In this document: in pieces, positions 25,860-64,000 of the stretch | Position numbering within the stretch: position 1 is the first letter of the stretch | How the letters are laid out: each line of letters begins with the position of its first letter | Source of the DNA: Deltaproteobacteria bacterium | GTDB lineage: Bacteria; Bdellovibrionota; JACOXK01 | DNA length: 64,000 nucleotides | Direction of reading: 5' to 3' | NCBI GenBank assembly: GCA_016186995.1 | Contig: JACPKQ010000010.1 | Span: forward strand, 1-64,000 | Notes under the pieces: generated by a model | Seen by the model: the letters and a program-made list of their open reading frames with translations, nothing else | What the model was told of the DNA's origin: nothing | Databases searched by the model: none | Position numbers and translations under genes: made by a program

Positions 25860-25899
25860 TAATTTTAATAAGTTAGGCAGGCTATAAACATTTTCACAG
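25860..25899 (+). repeat. 40-bp direct repeat, copy 1 (oriC)
   Basis: Exact 40-base match to 26175-26214, starting TAATTTTAATAAGTTAGGCA and ending in TTTTCACAG. It is not explained by DnaA boxes alone. Confidence 0.95.
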
Positions 25900-26174: not shown

Positions 26175-26214
26175 TAATTTTAATAAGTTAGGCAGGCTAT
26201 AAACATTTTCACAG
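26175..26214 (+). repeat. 40-bp direct repeat, copy 2 (oriC)
   Basis: Second exact copy, 315 bp from the first. It ends 5 nt before the ACT triplet run, and its final ATTTTCACA is a degenerate DnaA box abutting a GGG. Confidence 0.95.
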
Positions 26215-39812: not shown

Positions 39813-40721
39813 TTAGAGAAGAATTTTAATGGTCGCTTTTTCTCTTTGTTTTTGAATAAACTCGTGCTGAACGCTCAAAATTTTTTCTTGAAAAAGATTT
39901 TGATGAATCTGCTCTTTTGCTTGGCTTGGAAGATCGATGTGAATAATATGATAACCATTTTGGGTTTTAAAAAGAGAGCTAATGTTTCCTATTTTCATTT
40001 TATTAATTTGTTTTTCAAACTCAGGAATCATTTGTCCTTTTGTAAAAACGCCCAAATCACCACCCGATGAGGCAAAAGGTCCTTCAGAATATTTTTTTGC
40101 TAAATCTTCAAACGGTGCCCCCTTTTTAAACTCATCAGTTACTTTTTGAGCTAGTTCAGTATTCTTTGTTTTAAAAAAAACCTGTTTAACTTGAAATTGC
40201 TTTAAATTTTTAGCAATGTTGGGGTGGGTTGCATAGAAGTTATAAATATCTTTATCAGTTATTTTAACTTTGGAAATTTCTGGACCCAAAAGTTTTCTAA
40301 TTTCAATTTCGCCCTTAAGTCTTTTTTTATATTGAGCAATGGTGAAGCCTTCTTTTTTAATAGCTTCTTCAAATTCTTTTTCTGTCATTCCAAATCGTTC
40401 AACAGTTTCTTTAAAGTAAGAATCAACTTCTTTTTGTGAGGCACTAAGGCCTTTTTCTTGAAGGGTTTGGTTTAAGAGTTCATCATTAATAAGAAGTTCT
40501 AAAATGGCGGAATTTGATTTAAGGGCTTCTTTTTCAAAGGGAAGCTTTTCAGATTTTTTCTTTAGCTCATTTTTTTTAATCCTTATATCTGAATAAAGAA
40601 TAACTTTATTGTTAACCTGAGCTATAATTCGATCAACAAGCGTATCCTGCTTGGTTTTAGCCAAGGCGCCATCAGAAAGTAAAAGTGCTAAAAAAAGAGT
40701 TAAAAACTGTATTTTTCTCAT
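39813..40721 (-). CDS. surA: Periplasmic chaperone/peptidyl-prolyl isomerase SurA
   Basis: From ATG 40721 the 302-residue product has a signal peptide (KIQFLTLFLALLLSDGALA). A SurA N-terminal chaperone region follows (VDRIIAQVNNKVILYSDIRI), then a parvulin domain at ~170-270 (ASSGGDLGVFTKGQMIPEFE; NGYHIIHID). The upstream in-frame residues are not signal-like and cover the promoter, so I reject the longer start. It has one parvulin domain rather than E. coli SurA's two. It probably assists outer-membrane protein folding. Confidence 0.88.
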   Translation of the reverse strand: MRKIQFLTLFLALLLSDGALAKTKQDTLVDRIIAQVNNKVILYSDIRIKKNELKKKSEKLPFEKEALKSNSAILELLINDELLNQTLQEKGLSASQKEVDSYFKETVERFGMTEKEFEEAIKKEGFTIAQYKKRLKGEIEIRKLLGPEISKVKITDKDIYNFYATHPNIAKNLKQFQVKQVFFKTKNTELAQKVTDEFKKGAPFEDLAKKYSEGPFASSGGDLGVFTKGQMIPEFEKQINKMKIGNISSLFKTQNGYHIIHIDLPSQAKEQIHQNLFQEKILSVQHEFIQKQREKATIKILL

Positions 40722-40728
40722 AAAAATG

Positions 40729-40757
40729 AGAATAGTAAGTCTATCCTTTTTTGTAAA
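40729..40757 (-). promoter_or_regulatory. Predicted promoter of surA-pdxA-pmm-uvrA
   Basis: TTTACA (40752-40757) and TATTCT (40729-40734) with a 17-nt spacer; surA ATG is 7 nt after the -10. The rest of the 40758-41140 gap holds palindromic repeats and no credible gene. Confidence 0.5.
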
Positions 40758-40928
40758 GCCTCGGCTAAATGTATATTCTGCTCCTATTTCCAAAACCCGT
40801 AGATTCTATGGGATTTCAAAAACCTTTACCTTGAGGCATTGCCTTGGGTGGTTACGCTATAAAAAGACTACTTACACGAGCAAATCTTGCTACAAATCCT
40901 TCCCAAGTTTCTAGTTGGAATGTGTACT

Positions 40929-40956
40929 TGTCATTCCAGCGAAGGCTGGAATCCAG
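40929..40956. repeat. Dispersed palindromic repeat, copy A
   Basis: The 28-bp unit begins TGTCATTCCAGCGAAGGCTG and ends ATCCAG, with inverted arms TCATTCCAGC/GCTGGAAT. It is identical to the copy in the tamA/bamA coding region (60929-60956) and inverted relative to 41965-41992. A related diverged unit follows at about 40987-41012. Confidence 0.85.
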
Positions 40957-41140
40957 AACACAGATACTAAGATGAAAGTCACATATGTTATTCCTGTACA
41001 GGTGGGAAGCCACAGGCGCTAAGTCTGATAGTTAAACGTACTTTATGAGTTGATAAATCTAAATTTAAAAACTCAACAAATTAAAACTTGTTTTTGTTTA
41101 AATGATTTGAGTAAATGTGCAAAAGCACATTGGACAAAAA

Positions 41141-41863
41141 ATGGAACTATATTCGATTCTTACGATAATTTTTATTTTTTCTATTATTCAATCAGTGATG
41201 GGAGTAGGTCTTCTTGTATTTGGTACCCCAACGCTATTATTGTGTGGATTGTCATTCCACGAAACCTTAGGAATTGTACTTCCACCATCGATTATTATTA
41301 GCTTAATGCAGGTTTGTGAAGCTAAAGTTCCTTCAAAGGACTATTTTAAGTCAGAATTTAATAAATTTTGCCTCCCTTTTGTATTAGTGGGAATGGCTAT
41401 TGCATTGACATTGGCACAATCAGTCGATTTTAAATATTTTGTGGGAATCATGCTCATTATCAGCGGAAGTATAAGGCTTTTTAAACAATTTGAGGCAATC
41501 TTAATTAAGGTAATCAAGAAAAACAGAAAACTATATCAAGTGCTAATGGGATTAATTCATGGGTTAACAAATATGGGGGGCGGATTGCTTGTTCTTTTTT
41601 CTTCTTCAATGCATCATAATAAATTGGACATACGATCAGGCGTTGCTTATGGATATTTATTTATGGGGACACTTCAATATTTAACTCTCCTTATCTATGA
41701 TATATCTTTTCTGAAATTTAATATTCTATTTTATATAATAACTGCTACTTTGACCTATGGTGTTTTGGGAAAACGGTTATTTTATAGAACACATGAAAGT
41801 ATTTTTCAAAAAATGATTACATCAATAATTTTTCTTTATGGCATAATACTGTTTGTTAAATGA
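41141..41863 (+). CDS. TauE/SafE-family membrane permease
   Basis: About 240 residues with seven to eight hydrophobic helices and the family-like N-terminal SVMGVGLLVFGTPTLLL followed by VLPPSIIISLMQ; the second half repeats the pattern (LIHGLTNMGGGLLVLFSSSM). The TauE/SafE (DUF81) family exports sulfite or sulfoacetate or transports related anions; substrate unknown here. It is opposite in orientation to all neighbours and lies between inverted repeats. The ATG 41141 is preferred; 41117 is possible. Confidence 0.82.
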   Translation: MELYSILTIIFIFSIIQSVMGVGLLVFGTPTLLLCGLSFHETLGIVLPPSIIISLMQVCEAKVPSKDYFKSEFNKFCLPFVLVGMAIALTLAQSVDFKYFVGIMLIISGSIRLFKQFEAILIKVIKKNRKLYQVLMGLIHGLTNMGGGLLVLFSSSMHHNKLDIRSGVAYGYLFMGTLQYLTLLIYDISFLKFNILFYIITATLTYGVLGKRLFYRTHESIFQKMITSIIFLYGIILFVK

Positions 41864-41964
41864 AAGATAAATATTAAACGGTGAGTATTACAACATGACC
41901 TCGACGTTCTGGGTTCGCTACCTCCGCGGGCGCGATGGTGCACACTTCAATCTAATAAGTGTAC

Positions 41965-41992
41965 CTGGATCCCAGCCTTCGCTGGGATGACA
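41965..41992. repeat. Dispersed palindromic repeat, copy B (inverted)
   Basis: Reverse complement begins TGTCATCCCAGCGAAGGCTG, two substitutions from copy A. Together with 40929-40956 it brackets the TauE gene. The intervening 41895-41960 bases are unusually G+C-rich. Confidence 0.8.
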
Positions 41993-42026
41993 TGGAATAG
42001 ATAACAGCATGATTTAGAGCCTGATC

Positions 42027-57112: not shown

Positions 57113-60100
57113 ATGAAAAGAATCGTTAGCCTTTTTTTAGTGATTCTTATTTTATCTTTTTCTAGTTTTGTTTATTTAACAAAACAGCCTTTTTTCCAGC
57201 AGTATTTGAAAAGACTTGTTTATGAATATGCCGAAAAAGAGTTTAAAAGAAAGATAGAATTTAAAACCCTTTCCATAGGGTTTTTGGGCCCTACCATTTA
57301 TTCTGATGAGGTTTCTGTTTCTAAAAAAAACGAGAGTTTGTTTTTAAAAAGTATAAAGGCGCGAGTGAGTATTTTAGCCCTTTTAAAGGGGCAATTTAAA
57401 ATTTCTTCTATTTATGGATATCAAGGAAAATTTCAATCTGTATTAGAGAATAACAAAGGTCAAGGAAAACCCCCAGATATTTTCGGTAGTTTTTTAATTC
57501 CAAAATTTGAATTTGAAAAAATAGATTTTGAAATAAAATCTCAAAATAGTGATGAAATTTTTATTTCAAACGCTTCTATCGAAGGAAATCAAAAATCTGA
57601 AGTTGTTTTCCTCAAATTAAATTTTCCCAAAATAAATTTTAAGTATAAAAATCTAGAAAGAACTCATCTCTCCCTCAATGTGAGGGGAGATGTTTCCCCA
57701 AAACGGATTTATTTAAAGAATTTTTTGTTAAAAGAGAATAATAACAAACTGAACTTAAGTGGATATTATCATTTTAATAAGAAACAAAAGCTTGATATTC
57801 AGTTTGATTCAAATTTCGATGTTAAAAGTCTTCACGATATTCTACCCCAAGTTAAAATCTTGAGTGGGCATGGAAGATCTGTGGGAAGTCTTAAGGGGAT
57901 ATTAGATGCCCCTGTTCTTCAGTTTTCATCGCAGTTTGAAAGTATTTTTGTAGGCCCCCAAGAACTTAAAGAAGCTCAATTTTCTTTTTTGTTAAAGGAT
58001 AAAGTAATTCAAATTACAAATTTAGAATCCTATAAAACAGTTCGGGGGGGTGTAGAAATAAAACTGAGCGATCCTTTAAATGTCAGGGGAAGCCTTCACC
58101 TTTCCCAAACCCCCCTAGAAAATATTTATTATCTTAAGGAATTAGGTATTTTAGGTAAGGCAACCGGTCCTGTTAAATTTGTGATTGATGGAAATCAAAA
58201 ATACCCTGCTTTTTTAGAGAGTGATCTTTTGGTGGAAGGTTTTCAAAGCCCAGTGGGGCAGGTTGTTGATATTCAAAACTTTCAACTCAGTGCCAAGTAT
58301 TCTATTGGTGGAGAAGGGCTGTTAGTAGAAAGCGGAAAGATAAACCGTGGTAAAACTGTATGGAAGATCAAAAAATCTCAAGTTGGTTTTGGGGCGCGCC
58401 CACTTCATTTTGAAATTACCTCGGAAAATTATAGATGGGCAGATTTCCCCCTTTCTCCTATTAAAGAAAGTTTTGATGCCCAGGGTCATGTGCGCGTTTT
58501 ATTTGAAGGAAAAACCAAAGATCTAAAAATAGAAAGTAGTTTTGATCTTAATAATATTAAGTTTTTAGGACTTTCCTGTGAGGGACTTCAAAGCAAGATT
58601 TCTTTTAATAAGTCTATTCTTACAATTCTTGAAGCAAAAGCATTTCAAGAAGATTCTTTTTTAAGCCTTAATGGGCAATATGATTTTATAGAAAAAGAAT
58701 TTAAAAATACAAAGATTCATTCAAACAAAGTTTCTGTAAAAGATTTTATCCAGGCGGGTGTAGCTATTCCTTTTTCACTAGAGGGGCTTTTTGAAGTTGA
58801 TCTTAATGTTCAAGGGTCTCTTACAAGAAAAAATATATTTTTGGAAGGAGAAATTAAAGGTAGAAACACAAGAATTTTAAAGGAAAGTTTTGAGAAGGTG
58901 TCTATTTCTTTTTCTCAAAAAAATGGGAAAACTTTTTTAAAGAAATCTCAGTTTTCAAAAGGCGGAGGTGTTTTAAATATAAGTGGTGTTATTTTTGAAA
59001 ACAATGAGTGTTTGTTAGATTTTAAAACAGAAAACTTTGTTTCTCAGTCTTTCGATTTTTTATCTCAGTATCCTTTTTTCATTTCTGCCCGCGTTGATTT
59101 TTTGGGAAGCTTAAGAGGAAACATTTTTAATCCCAAAGGAAAGGCAAAACTTCATTTTTCAAAATCAAATCTTAATGGAGAGGCTCTTAAAAACTCAACT
59201 TACGAAATGAGTTTAGAGAATAAAAGTCTCAATGTAAAAGGAGAAGTTTTTGAAGGAGAGGCCTCTTTAACATCTCAAATAAAACTTGATGCCCCCTATT
59301 TTTATAAGATACATTTACAAGGGAAAAACTTCAATTTTAAACCCTTTTACGGGCTTATCAGGGGTTTTGTAAGTGAAGGAGTGGGAATTATTGACGGAAG
59401 TATTTTAGCAGAGGGATCTTTGGAATCCCCATTGGTAAATACTTTAGAAGTTAAAATCAATAAATTTAAAATCAACCTCCCCGGATATTTTTTAGAATCT
59501 AAAACCCCTTTTCAAGTTTCTTATAAAAACAACGAGTTAGAGGTGGGTAAGGTTTATTTTTTTGGAACGGAAACAGAGTTTGTTTTTTCTGGCAAGAAAG
59601 ATAAAAATGGAACGCTTGATTTTGACGGCAAAGGAGCCCTAAACATTGCCTTTCTCCCCCTCTTTGTAAAAGAAGTAGAAAGGGGAAGTGGACTTTTAAA
59701 TGTTTCTTTTTCTCTTAAAGGATCTGCAGAAAACCCGCTTCTCTTGGGGTATGTGAGAACAGAAAATAGTTCTATAAGGTCAAGAACACTGAAACAAGGC
59801 ATCAGTAATTTAAATTTAGATATAAAACTTCATAACCAAGAAATTATTTTTGAAAAAGCTATCTTTGATCTGCCGAGAGGTAAGGCAAAGCTGGGTGGCA
59901 ATGTTCTTCTTTCTAAAATAAGGGAACCAGAATTTAACATTTCTCTAGAATTAGAAAAAGGTCGGATTTCTTTTTTTGAAGATCTTTTTTCAACAATGAG
60001 TGGAACTTTATTTTTAGAAGGAAAATCGCCTTTTCTTATAAGAGGAGACCTAGAAGTTTCAAAAATAGAATATGAAAGATATTTGGATTGGAAAAGCAAT

Positions 60101-60919
60101 ATTATACCACTTACAAAAAAAGGAGAAATTAAAGTTTCAGGGGAAAATAAAGAACCCACGTTTAATTTTGATTTAAAAATAAAAAGTATTAGTGATCTTG
60201 AAGTTGAAAATAACCTTTTCCAACTTCAAGGAAGTGGTGTTTTTGAAATTAAGGGAAATAATTTAAACCCCGTTATCTTGGGGCATTTTGATACACAGAA
60301 AGGAAAAATCTTTTTTAAAGATCATACGTTTCAACTTGGGGAAAGCCAGCTTATTTTAAAAGACAAGACAAAAATAAACCCGTTTTTCTCATTTACTCTT
60401 TCGGGTGTGATAAGGGATTATCGCATCACTATTATTGGTCAGGGAGATTTAGTGAAATATAATATTCAACTTCAGTCAGATCCACCCTTGGCCCAAACAG
60501 ATATTGTTTCTCTTCTTACACTTGGGGTTTTAACCGCCGAAATTCAGGGTGAAGAAGCATTAGGTACAACCTCTTTTGAAGCTGCGACGCTTATTTTAAG
60601 TCAGTTTCAGGAAAAAATAGCAGTGGTTGCTAGAAAGACACTGGGGGTTCAGTTTAGACTTGCTTCTTCTTATTCAGATACAAAACATGCTGTTCGTCCG
60701 AGGTTGTTTCTTTCGAAAGATCTTTCCGATCGTTTAGAATTGTCATTTTCATCAACGTTAGATAGAGAGGGTATTTTTGAAGACAAACTTTTTAACTTAG
60801 AATGGCGTTTAAATAGAAGGCTTTCTCTTTTAGGGGTGTGGGAAGATGAAGGAAGTCAGGAAACAAATCAAGAATCTATTTTTGGATTAGATGTTAAATA
60901 TAAATATGAATTTGAATAA
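57113..60919 (+). CDS. tamB: TamB/DUF490-family translocation protein
   Basis: The 1268-residue envelope protein has an N-terminal membrane anchor (IVSLFLVILILSFSSFVYLT), a long beta-rich body with AsmA-like repeats, and the C-terminal DUF490 region (e.g. SLLTLGVLTAEIQGEEALGT; RLELSFSSTLDREGIFEDKL). The family bridges inner and outer membranes for lipid or protein transport. It overlaps the Omp85 gene by 14 nt, matching the usual TamA-TamB pairing. The start at 57113 has no SD. Confidence 0.88.
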   Translation: MKRIVSLFLVILILSFSSFVYLTKQPFFQQYLKRLVYEYAEKEFKRKIEFKTLSIGFLGPTIYSDEVSVSKKNESLFLKSIKARVSILALLKGQFKISSIYGYQGKFQSVLENNKGQGKPPDIFGSFLIPKFEFEKIDFEIKSQNSDEIFISNASIEGNQKSEVVFLKLNFPKINFKYKNLERTHLSLNVRGDVSPKRIYLKNFLLKENNNKLNLSGYYHFNKKQKLDIQFDSNFDVKSLHDILPQVKILSGHGRSVGSLKGILDAPVLQFSSQFESIFVGPQELKEAQFSFLLKDKVIQITNLESYKTVRGGVEIKLSDPLNVRGSLHLSQTPLENIYYLKELGILGKATGPVKFVIDGNQKYPAFLESDLLVEGFQSPVGQVVDIQNFQLSAKYSIGGEGLLVESGKINRGKTVWKIKKSQVGFGARPLHFEITSENYRWADFPLSPIKESFDAQGHVRVLFEGKTKDLKIESSFDLNNIKFLGLSCEGLQSKISFNKSILTILEAKAFQEDSFLSLNGQYDFIEKEFKNTKIHSNKVSVKDFIQAGVAIPFSLEGLFEVDLNVQGSLTRKNIFLEGEIKGRNTRILKESFEKVSISFSQKNGKTFLKKSQFSKGGGVLNISGVIFENNECLLDFKTENFVSQSFDFLSQYPFFISARVDFLGSLRGNIFNPKGKAKLHFSKSNLNGEALKNSTYEMSLENKSLNVKGEVFEGEASLTSQIKLDAPYFYKIHLQGKNFNFKPFYGLIRGFVSEGVGIIDGSILAEGSLESPLVNTLEVKINKFKINLPGYFLESKTPFQVSYKNNELEVGKVYFFGTETEFVFSGKKDKNGTLDFDGKGALNIAFLPLFVKEVERGSGLLNVSFSLKGSAENPLLLGYVRTENSSIRSRTLKQGISNLNLDIKLHNQEIIFEKAIFDLPRGKAKLGGNVLLSKIREPEFNISLELEKGRISFFEDLFSTMSGTLFLEGKSPFLIRGDLEVSKIEYERYLDWKSNIIPLTKKGEIKVSGENKEPTFNFDLKIKSISDLEVENNLFQLQGSGVFEIKGNNLNPVILGHFDTQKGKIFFKDHTFQLGESQLILKDKTKINPFFSFTLSGVIRDYRITIIGQGDLVKYNIQLQSDPPLAQTDIVSLLTLGVLTAEIQGEEALGTTSFEAATLILSQFQEKIAVVARKTLGVQFRLASSYSDTKHAVRPRLFLSKDLSDRLELSFSSTLDREGIFEDKLFNLEWRLNRRLSLLGVWEDEGSQETNQESIFGLDVKYKYEFE

Positions 60920-63437
60920 AAAAAACAATGTCATTCCAGCGAAGGCTGGAATCCAGTTTTTAAAAATTTTTATCTTTTTTATTTCTTTGCAGGTTTTTTC
61001 TGAGCCACAAGAACTTGTCAAAATAAATAAAATTAACTTTGAAGGGCTTCATGAATTTTCTGAAGTTATTACCCTCAAAAAAATAAACTTGAGTGAGTAT
61101 TCTTATGTTGAAAGAGAAGAGATTGAAAAATATGGTAATAAAATTAAAGAGCTTTATAAAAGAGAGGGTTTCTTAAAAGCAGTAGTAATCCCTCTTCTTA
61201 AAGAAGAGGGGAAAAATGAATTTAATCTTATTTTTAATATTCAAGAAAAGAACCGCAGTATTGTTCAAAGTATTTTTGTTGAAACAAATAATAAAAAAGA
61301 ATTAGAAAGCCTTCTTTCTCTTGTTCAAGTAAAAAAAGGCGATTTTTTTATCTACTTTGAGTTAGAAAAAAATCTAGACATTTTTAAAAATGCACTTTAC
61401 GAGAAGGGTTATGAAGAAATTGAGGATTTAAGTTTTGGGTATATTCAATCTGATAAAGATCCTTATGTTGATGTTAAATTTATTGTTAAAACAGGCCCTA
61501 AGTATATTTATCATTTTGAAGATAATGAGACTTTTAAAAACAAAGAAATTTTAAATTTAAAAAAAGAGCAAAATTGGACGCCTGAAGATTTTGCTGACAA
61601 AATTGTCGAGTTTTACAAAAAGTCAGGGTTTCATTTTAGCAAAGTCTATTTTTCTCTTAAAGAAGATATATCTCAAAAAGAAAAAAATCTGTTCTATAAA
61701 ATTGAAGAAGGTCCTCTTGTTACAATTGAAGAGGTTTTTTTTCACGGGGCCATTTTTAGAAACTCGCTCTTTTACAAAGAGTATTTATTTGAAAAATCTA
61801 AGGATTCTCTATCTGTAAAAGCCTTTTATAGAAAATCATTTGAATCTGGATTGCCTGTTGTTATCGAATATTTAGGAAACCAAGGATTTTTAAAGGCTCG
61901 TATCGATCGTACCCAGTATGATTTTTCTGGAGACAATAAAAAAGTTAAAATTCATGTTTATCTCTATGAAGGCCATCAAGTTAAAATCTCTAAAATACAG
62001 ATTCAAGGTATTAAAAAACGTCCCTTAAGTGAAATTATTGATGTTTTGGGTGTAAAAGAAGGAGATGCATTTAATTTATCTTTTTTGGAAAGGTCTTTAA
62101 CAAGGCTTAAAAGTTATTATCGTGAATTGGGGTTTTACTACTTTTCTTTGACAAGTGAAGAAAAAATAATTTTTGCAACCCCAACAAATATCATTCTTGA
62201 TTTACATTTTAGAGAAGGTCCTCTTGTTACAGTTCGCGAGATCGAAGTAAAAAACAACCACAGAACTAAATCAAAAGTTATTAGAAGAGAACTCACCTTT
62301 AAAAAAGAAGATATTTTGAGATCTTCTTCTCTTTTTGAATCAGAAAATAAACTTTTACGCTTGGGGCTTTTTCAATTTGTAAATATTTTTGTTGAAAATG
62401 AAGGGACTCAAGACGCATCTAAAAATATTGTTGTTGAGGTTCAAGAAAGAAAATCTGGACTTTTTGAATTTGGCGGTGGAATTAAAACAGAGGAAGGTTT
62501 TCAGGCTTTTTCAGGCATTTTTTATAAAAACTTAGGTGGGTGGAACAGAACCCTTTCTTTCCACGGAGATTTTAATAGAAAAATTGAGAACCCACAGTTT
62601 ATTGAAAGAGAAATCAATTTTGGAGCTCAAGAACCTTATCTTTTTGGAGTTCCCTTTATTATGAGATTGAATGCCCTTAATAAGAAAAAAGATAAAAGAG
62701 CTTACGATGTGCATACTTGGGAGGGTATTGTTAGTTTTGAATCTAAAGTGTGGGATACTTTTCGAATGCTTTTTGAATACCATTTTTCTTTTAGAGATAT
62801 TTTTAATACACTTAATCCTGCTGATGAAGAAAAAAAATTACTTGGAGTTATAAAACCCGCATTTTACTTGGACTATAGAAATAACGCTCTTAACCCCTCT
62901 AGGGGCACTTTCCATTCTTTTGGGATAGAGTATGCAAGCCCTCTTCTTGGATCAGATGACAAAAATCATTTTTATAAATTACTTGCTTCAACAAACTGGT
63001 ATCTTCCCTTTGATCAAGAAGAAAATGTTGTTGTTGCTTTAGCTTTAAGGGGTGGTTTTGCCCAAAGTCTTTTAACGGGTTCGGGTATTCCTGCTGACCA
63101 AAGATTTTATTTAGGAGGGAGATCCACTATTAGAGGTTTTGAAGAAGATGAGCTGGGTGTTATTAGTACGACAAAAGAAATTACACAAACCTATTTTTTA
63201 AATTATAAAACTGAATTAAGATTTCCTCTATTTTGGAAAATAGGGGGAGCGATCTTTGTTGATGGGGGTAATGTTGCTTTTGGAGGACTTCGAGCGTTTT
63301 CTTCAAGAGAGGCTGCTGGTCTTGGAATTCGATATTTATCGCCTGTTGGACCTCTTTCTTTTGATGCTGGGTATAAATTAGATCGACAGCCCGGTGAATC
63401 AGCCTATCAAATCCATTTTTCAATTGGTGTTTTTTAA
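60906..63437 (+). CDS. Omp85-family outer-membrane protein (BamA/TamA-like)
   Basis: The ~843-residue protein has a signal peptide whose n-region includes VIPAKAGIQ from an embedded repeat, followed by IFIFFISLQVFSEP. Several POTRA domains follow to ~residue 460 (VTIEEVFFHGAIFRNS; VKISKIQIQGIKKRPLSEII; VTVREIEVKNNHRTKSKVIR), then a C-terminal beta-barrel (YLGGRSTIRGFEEDELG with the conserved RGF). The repeat lies 20-47 nt from this ATG. The downstream partner of tamB suggests TamA, but the POTRA number also fits a BamA. An ATG at 60891 is possible. Confidence 0.85.
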   Translation: MNLNKKNNVIPAKAGIQFLKIFIFFISLQVFSEPQELVKINKINFEGLHEFSEVITLKKINLSEYSYVEREEIEKYGNKIKELYKREGFLKAVVIPLLKEEGKNEFNLIFNIQEKNRSIVQSIFVETNNKKELESLLSLVQVKKGDFFIYFELEKNLDIFKNALYEKGYEEIEDLSFGYIQSDKDPYVDVKFIVKTGPKYIYHFEDNETFKNKEILNLKKEQNWTPEDFADKIVEFYKKSGFHFSKVYFSLKEDISQKEKNLFYKIEEGPLVTIEEVFFHGAIFRNSLFYKEYLFEKSKDSLSVKAFYRKSFESGLPVVIEYLGNQGFLKARIDRTQYDFSGDNKKVKIHVYLYEGHQVKISKIQIQGIKKRPLSEIIDVLGVKEGDAFNLSFLERSLTRLKSYYRELGFYYFSLTSEEKIIFATPTNIILDLHFREGPLVTVREIEVKNNHRTKSKVIRRELTFKKEDILRSSSLFESENKLLRLGLFQFVNIFVENEGTQDASKNIVVEVQERKSGLFEFGGGIKTEEGFQAFSGIFYKNLGGWNRTLSFHGDFNRKIENPQFIEREINFGAQEPYLFGVPFIMRLNALNKKKDKRAYDVHTWEGIVSFESKVWDTFRMLFEYHFSFRDIFNTLNPADEEKKLLGVIKPAFYLDYRNNALNPSRGTFHSFGIEYASPLLGSDDKNHFYKLLASTNWYLPFDQEENVVVALALRGGFAQSLLTGSGIPADQRFYLGGRSTIRGFEEDELGVISTTKEITQTYFLNYKTELRFPLFWKIGGAIFVDGGNVAFGGLRAFSSREAAGLGIRYLSPVGPLSFDAGYKLDRQPGESAYQIHFSIGVF
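60929..60956. repeat. Dispersed palindromic repeat, copy C, inside a gene
   Basis: The 28-bp unit is identical to 40929-40956 and is translated in frame as VIPAKAGIQ near the start of the Omp85 gene. Confidence 0.85.
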
Positions 63438-63440
63438 TAG

Positions 63441-64000
63441 CTAGCACCTCTCAACAGAAATAAATCTTGCTATAAAAAAGCCATCGGGACCTGCTAATAA
63501 AGGTGTTGAAAGAAAGCACCCATTCATATCGATAAAAGCGTGGCAGGGTTTTGGTAGAAAATCTTTTAAGTTTTGAAGCTTGAGTGTTGGATATTTTTTT
63601 AAGGTATCTTCAACAAAATCTAAAGTTTCTTCTTTTGAAAAAGTACAAACAGCATAAACAAACACCCCTCCTTTTTTCAGAAAGGGCAAAAGATTGTCTC
63701 TTATCTTTTTCTGTAACTCGGCCAACTTTTCAATATCTTCTGGTTTTTGACGCCATTTGATTTCAGGGTGGTGACGTATAATACCCCACCCTGAGCAAGG
63801 AGCGTCTAAAAGAATTTTCTCAACTTTGGGTAATAGATCCCCGCCTTTGCTGGGAGGATAATTATAAAGATCTTTTTTTTGGAATTGAACATTTTTTATG
63901 TGAAGACGTTCCATGTTCTCTTTCATTTTTAGACTTTCCTTTTTGTCTATTGAAAGAATAGTTCCTTTATTTCCCATCATTTGTGAAATATGAGCTGTTT
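63441..64000 (-). CDS. rsmB: 16S rRNA (cytosine-C5) methyltransferase RsmB (partial, C-terminal part)
   Basis: The reading frame continues past the window end. The visible part has the SAM-binding tail (THISQMMGNKGTIL-like), motif IV with catalytic-site sequence LLDAPCSGWGIIRHHPEIKW, and motif VI VYAVCTFSKEETLDFVED carrying the catalytic Cys. It converges on the Omp85 gene with a 3-nt gap. The 5' end is outside the window. Confidence 0.9.
   Translation of the reverse strand, partial: TAHISQMMGNKGTILSIDKKESLKMKENMERLHIKNVQFQKKDLYNYPPSKGGDLLPKVEKILLDAPCSGWGIIRHHPEIKWRQKPEDIEKLAELQKKIRDNLLPFLKKGGVFVYAVCTFSKEETLDFVEDTLKKYPTLKLQNLKDFLPKPCHAFIDMNGCFLSTPLLAGPDGFFIARFISVERC

Follow-up and report, generated by a model that had tools for sequence, protein, structure and literature searches.

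The CGTC-1 family of REPs includes dRS3 of Neisseria and RPE-6 of R. conorii (Di Nocera et al. 2013, PMC3733652). Both in-frame intragenic CGTC REPs, some of them at N-termini (PMC3733652), and a MITE that forms part of a signal peptide (PMC2229807) have already been published. A head-to-head dimer organisation is a described tendency of CGTC-1 REPs and not a defining feature, CGTC REPs were remarked to lack a dedicated transposase, and ambiguity of the start codon was noted for most N-terminal copies (PMC3733652). In Rickettsia, a guanylate kinase bearing an RPE is translated and active (PMC2229807); the Wolbachia palindrome WPE is unrelated to CGTC-4 (PMC3733652).

Here we analysed a repeat copy located in the leader of an Omp85-type gene within a 64,000-nt stretch of DNA (the window), and we used G001, a genome of the same family and another genus, as the sole family-level relative compared. 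Taken as a whole, the locus is very probably best explained by the in-frame insertion of a CGTC-1-type REP within a tamA-like leader, most likely with neutral effect. The features on which this reading is built are as follows.

57113..60919, plus strand: tamB (PF04357), the 3' end of which shares 14 nt with the beginning of the tamA-like gene.
60906..63437, plus strand: tamA/bamA-like gene, 843 aa plus stop, with Pfam POTRA and Omp85 matches; its start is kept in G001.
60906..61001, plus strand: signal peptide MNLNKKNNVIPAKAGIQFLKIFIFFISLQVFS, predicted from hydropathy and residue rules, with a putative cut after VFS.
60927..60956, plus strand: putative 30-nt insertion, made up of AA and the 28-nt CGTC-1 REP unit and read as NVIPAKAGIQ.
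60929-60956, plus strand: CGTC-1 REP copy TGTCATTCCAGCGAAGGCTGGAATCCAG, inside the Omp85 ORF and read as VIPAKAGIQ.
40929..40956, plus strand: intergenic repeat copy, identical to 60929-60956 at 28 of 28 nt.
41964..41991, minus strand: intergenic repeat copy with three mismatches; 41965-41993 is 93% complementary to 60929-60956.

When compared with NCBIfam models, the 843-aa protein scored slightly above the cut-off for BamA and under that for TamA, and because these scores are split but the gene lies directly 3' of tamB, we use TamA/BamA-like as the safe name. The first ATG of the ORF is found at 60891 (848 codons). G001 has the same gene pair, with a tamB end reading ...TATGAATTTGAATAA and a tamA-like gene that begins at that ATG (MNLNKKDILFLLLPFVTFGADF), and since the 14-nt overlap with tamB is the same in the window and in G001, we place the start at ATG 60906, the conserved position. 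A start at ATG 60891 was rejected because G001 has no in-frame start 5' of the equivalent of 60906; its tamA-like frame contains a stop shortly 5' of the ATG and no earlier start. An earlier note on this DNA had proposed a comparison with relatives that lack the repeat, and G001 provides it, as its leader starts with MNLNKK like that of the window and the repeat is absent (MNLNKKDILFLLLPFVTFGA). The same note had named a frameshift as a way in which its reading could fail, and none was found: the frame stays intact over 843 codons and contains both POTRA and Omp85 domains.

The tamA-like gene of G001 (L040, G001:C20) comprises 433 codons, starts at the equivalent of window ORF residue 448 and has a leader of its own; most POTRA domains, including the first POTRA region, are missing from it. 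Because of this missing first region, and because the leader cores of G001 and the window are different, the exact empty site is one that we infer. The net insertion is best taken as 30 nt (60927-60956), with boundaries presumably at these positions.

In the Omp85 ORF the repeat is open and is translated within the n-region of the leader, in line with what had been claimed from the sequence. As judged by hydropathy and residue rules only, all features of a Sec signal peptide fit, namely a positive n-region, a hydrophobic core and a -3/-1 site. The part ahead of the core IFIFFISLQVF contains four K/R and zero acidic residues, and the core has a mean hydropathy of 2.58. Joining the flanks of 60927-60956 gives an ordinary in-frame leader (MNLNKKNFLKIFIFFISLQVFS) with a core hydropathy of 2.58 over 11 residues in both versions; the effect of the insert on the leader is one additional lysine and an unaltered hydrophobic core. 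Cleavage between VFS and E, yielding a mature protein that starts with EPQ, would fit the -3/-1 rule. The n-region is tolerant in its own right. Between the repeat and the mature part, TTG 60987 is the only ATG, GTG or TTG; it lies past most of the core and would give LQVFSEP... without a hydrophobic core, bearing out the claim that no canonical start after the repeat retains it. Non-standard ATT and ATC start codons exist, though they are unlikely.

The earlier note had further described the repeat as an exact copy of an intergenic one, and this was confirmed: the identical copy at 40929 sits between two ORFs (39813-40793, minus strand, and 41117-41863, plus strand) and is therefore intergenic, and the copy at 41964 is likewise located between ORFs. 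Allowing up to three mismatches, we counted three copies in the window and zero in 100 dinucleotide shuffles. Two further sequences were seen in the window. An in-frame sequence in an rsmB-like gene (63836-63859, minus strand; PPSKGGDLLP) is two mismatches off the REP pattern and could be a decayed REP copy or chance, and an exact 40-nt direct repeat (25860-25899 and 26175-26214, spacing 315 nt) is not related to the REP.

The genome of the window (G000) is a 30-contig draft of 1.68 Mb that is 93% complete, and copies were taken from whole-genome pattern searches and from the stretches around copies. Matches to GTCATNCCNGCNNNNGCNGGNATC with at most two mismatches numbered 90, with zero for the reversed control, and the 76 copies that had one mismatch at most were read with their flanks. 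These copies define a unit in which T-GTC is followed by a stem of 8 bp, a loop of 4 nt (GAAG or GAAA in most cases) and a tail of the form C-C/T-A-G; the unit has fixed ends, and conservation drops outside it. GTC is almost invariant and is preceded by T in 64 of the 76 copies, the tail reads C, then C or T, then A in most of them, and compensatory changes occur at two stem pairs among the genome copies. The unit at 60929 consists of a TGTC tag, an 8-bp stem (ATTCCAGC/GCTGGAAT), the loop GAAG and the tail CCAG, and its single strand folds into the expected hairpin at -12.2 kcal/mol, better than 200 of 200 shuffles. We compared the element with published anatomies. An unpaired tag (TGTC variant), an 8-bp stem that starts with AT, a 4-nt loop, an unpaired CCA-like tail and a high copy number in the genome are all present, so that the element fits a CGTC-1-type REP by sequence anatomy. 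Head-to-head dimers are not the rule, as most copies are single, with close inverted pairs on contigs C1 (35523/35557), C10 (42253/42288), C14 (48503/48534) and C17 (14674/14701). The tag is TGTC and not the GTAG of RAYT-mobilised REPs. Like Rickettsia RPEs, the element is inserted in frame in conserved genes, and its conserved unit of about 28 nt falls short of the approximately 105-146 bp of RPEs. When paper texts were searched for the repeat, both as DNA and as peptide, the matches looked like primers and other unrelated sequence.

Curation of open frames across copies, in host genes with Pfam or NCBIfam matches, yielded 32 in-frame gene copies (19 interior, 5 N-terminal and 8 C-terminal), 28 of which belong to the 76-copy set with at most one mismatch; class and frame labels were assigned by hand, by reading the open frames against domain matches. 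The interior hosts include UvrC, ThyX, RibD, RibE, a DsbD-like protein, a response-regulator/kinase fusion, MutS, CtaA, prolyl oligopeptidase, CarB, Lpd, ResB, CcsB (three copies), PurN, MnmC2, NadE and ValS, and the majority of the curated copies reside in cytosolic or mature proteins. In ValS, 8-9 repeat residues are absent from nine orthologs, and UvrC has an altered, longer stretch when compared with six of six aligned orthologs. In alignments to PDB structures, PurN and RibE have additional residues at the repeat, and in Lpd and MutS the repeat remains unaligned between conserved blocks. NadE is a weaker case, because its two-mismatch copy aligns through with a small gap. The repeat in CarB occupies a loop of variable length among relatives, where G005 has DPRFRGDD, possibly an independent or older copy. 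This loop holds a REP in the genome of the window and DPRFRGDD in G005, and G001 has a long insert there; it resembles a hot spot for insertions or a site of particular tolerance. At L037 (763-2232, minus strand) and L103 we also observed tandem decayed arrays translated within Lpd (DSRLRGNDKGDRGNDKGDRGNDKGDRGNDE) and the three CcsB copies, which are in one gene.

A stop interrupts one of the unit's six reading frames, and the other five are all found in genes. The hydrophilic frame DSRLRGND is the commonest, with 9 of the 19 interior copies compared to 1 in 5 expected by chance (one-sided p ~0.007). It is conceivable, with the balance slightly against it, that this proteome ranks among the most REP-decorated outside Rickettsia, with core enzymes such as ValS, CarB, MutS and PurN carrying the peptide; if true, an element with a favoured DSRLRGND frame would amount to a naturally occurring in-frame survey of loops that tolerate insertion.

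The exact unit is present in Chloroflexi, Alphaproteobacteria, Patescibacteria, Anaerohalosphaeraceae and other named genomes. Its spread within the same phylum is patchy, with 268 pattern copies in G010 (in ~1.7 Mb, the highest number among the 59 genomes searched), 43 in G004, 24 in G005, 2 in G001 and none in most genomes. In the other named genomes, 18 of 118 exact units fall in ORFs of at least 200 aa, most of which look spurious, versus 28 of 76 here, a comparison that serves as a hint only, the two sets having been selected differently. A search for the Y1 transposase (PF01797) gave no match in the 93% complete genome of the window, which agrees with the published lack of a dedicated transposase for CGTC REPs. 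A RAYT as mover was rejected, since none is found in G000 and Y1_Tnp does not track repeat number in relatives: G005 has 24 repeats and zero Y1_Tnp matches, and three matches are found in G001, which has 2 repeats.

We weighed three other readings of the locus. The REP could have been kept since its RNA hairpin adjusts how tamA is translated, or how stable its mRNA is, relative to tamB. REPs are often transcribed, and they have been discussed as elements of control at the RNA level (PMC3733652); the hairpin, 28-51 nt past the start codon, folds with the energy given above, better than all 200 shuffles. However, the copy in the tamA leader is an ordinary family member that is also found at unrelated places, folding of the wider region is barely above shuffles (z -1.36) and there is no sign of hairpin conservation at the tamA site, and we regard this reading as improbable.

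Even less probable is that translation begins after the repeat at a rare ATT or ATC codon, leaving the repeat 5' untranslated, as suggested for many N-terminal REPs of other species. ATC 60951 and ATT 60966 are in frame, and the start ambiguity of N-terminal REPs is flagged in the literature (PMC3733652), but no ATG, GTG or TTG 3' of the repeat preserves the core, ATG 60906 and MNLNKK are common to the window and G001, and a start after the repeat would lose or reduce the n-region lysines. Misplacement of the repeat into the tamA-like gene during assembly can be given hardly any weight: although repeats can be misjoined and the genome is a 30-contig draft, usual reads are longer than 28 nt, the frame is open with a proper leader despite the repeat, and dozens of further copies are likewise in frame within conserved genes.

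According to the preferred reading, a CGTC-1-type REP, a short non-autonomous mobile hairpin presumably moved by a mechanism acting in trans, was copied in frame into the leader, behind its positively charged start and ahead of its hydrophobic core, and the REP would be translated as about 10 extra n-region residues. Because the charge is kept and the core untouched, the signal peptide should still work in export, and the extra residues would probably be removed together with it. The insertion may have been retained since frame, charge and core survived, and is most likely neutral; in-frame gene insertions would have been helped by five of the six element frames being open. The proposal that removal by signal peptidase explains tolerance does not stand as a general reason, because 19 copies persist in cytosolic or mature proteins; at the tamA site, removal may help. 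More broadly, a short mobile hairpin with five of its six frames open can enter a gene and add a loop or a longer leader with the protein surviving. There are about 30 cases in this one genome, and since many are in enzymes with solved structures, sites of insertion tolerance are directly testable.

With published CGTC-1 REPs the element shares the TGTC-variant tag, the AT-first 8-bp stem, the 4-nt loop and the CCA tail, as well as a copy number in the tens, the lack of a dedicated transposase and in-frame intragenic copies that include N-terminal ones (PMC3733652). It differs in that the host is a small genome outside the species list of that study, the intragenic share looks high, and the leader copy has a start codon backed by a relative. 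The likeness to Rickettsia palindromic elements drawn by the earlier note is apt, as CGTC-1 includes R. conorii RPE-6 by the assignment in PMC3733652; by that assignment, RPE-6 (CGTC-1) and RPE-4 (CGTC-4) fall in the same CGTC superfamily as the element, and they too are in frame in genes. Rickettsia RPE-1 and Wolbachia WPE are also palindromes translated in frame within conserved proteins. RPE-1-type RPEs measure 105-146 bp (PMC2229807) versus a 28-nt unit here, and membership in RPE-1/WPE was rejected because neither size nor published relations fit. Neisseria dRS3 is CGTC-1 too (PMC3733652), but is grouped in intergenic mosaics in Neisseria. The Yersinia RU-2/YPAL MITE (YPO1552; Delihas, PMC2229807) is likewise a mobile repeat whose translation forms part of a signal peptide; there, a 168-bp MITE contributes to the leader of what is putatively a new exported protein (PMC2229807), whereas the 28-nt REP described here extends the n-region in an outer-membrane protein that is conserved. 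For an N-terminal REP the tamA case is unusually clean, because the tamB-overlapping start common to the relative places the repeat behind the start, and its merits are the good support for this start codon and the large number of decorated genes that the genome carries.
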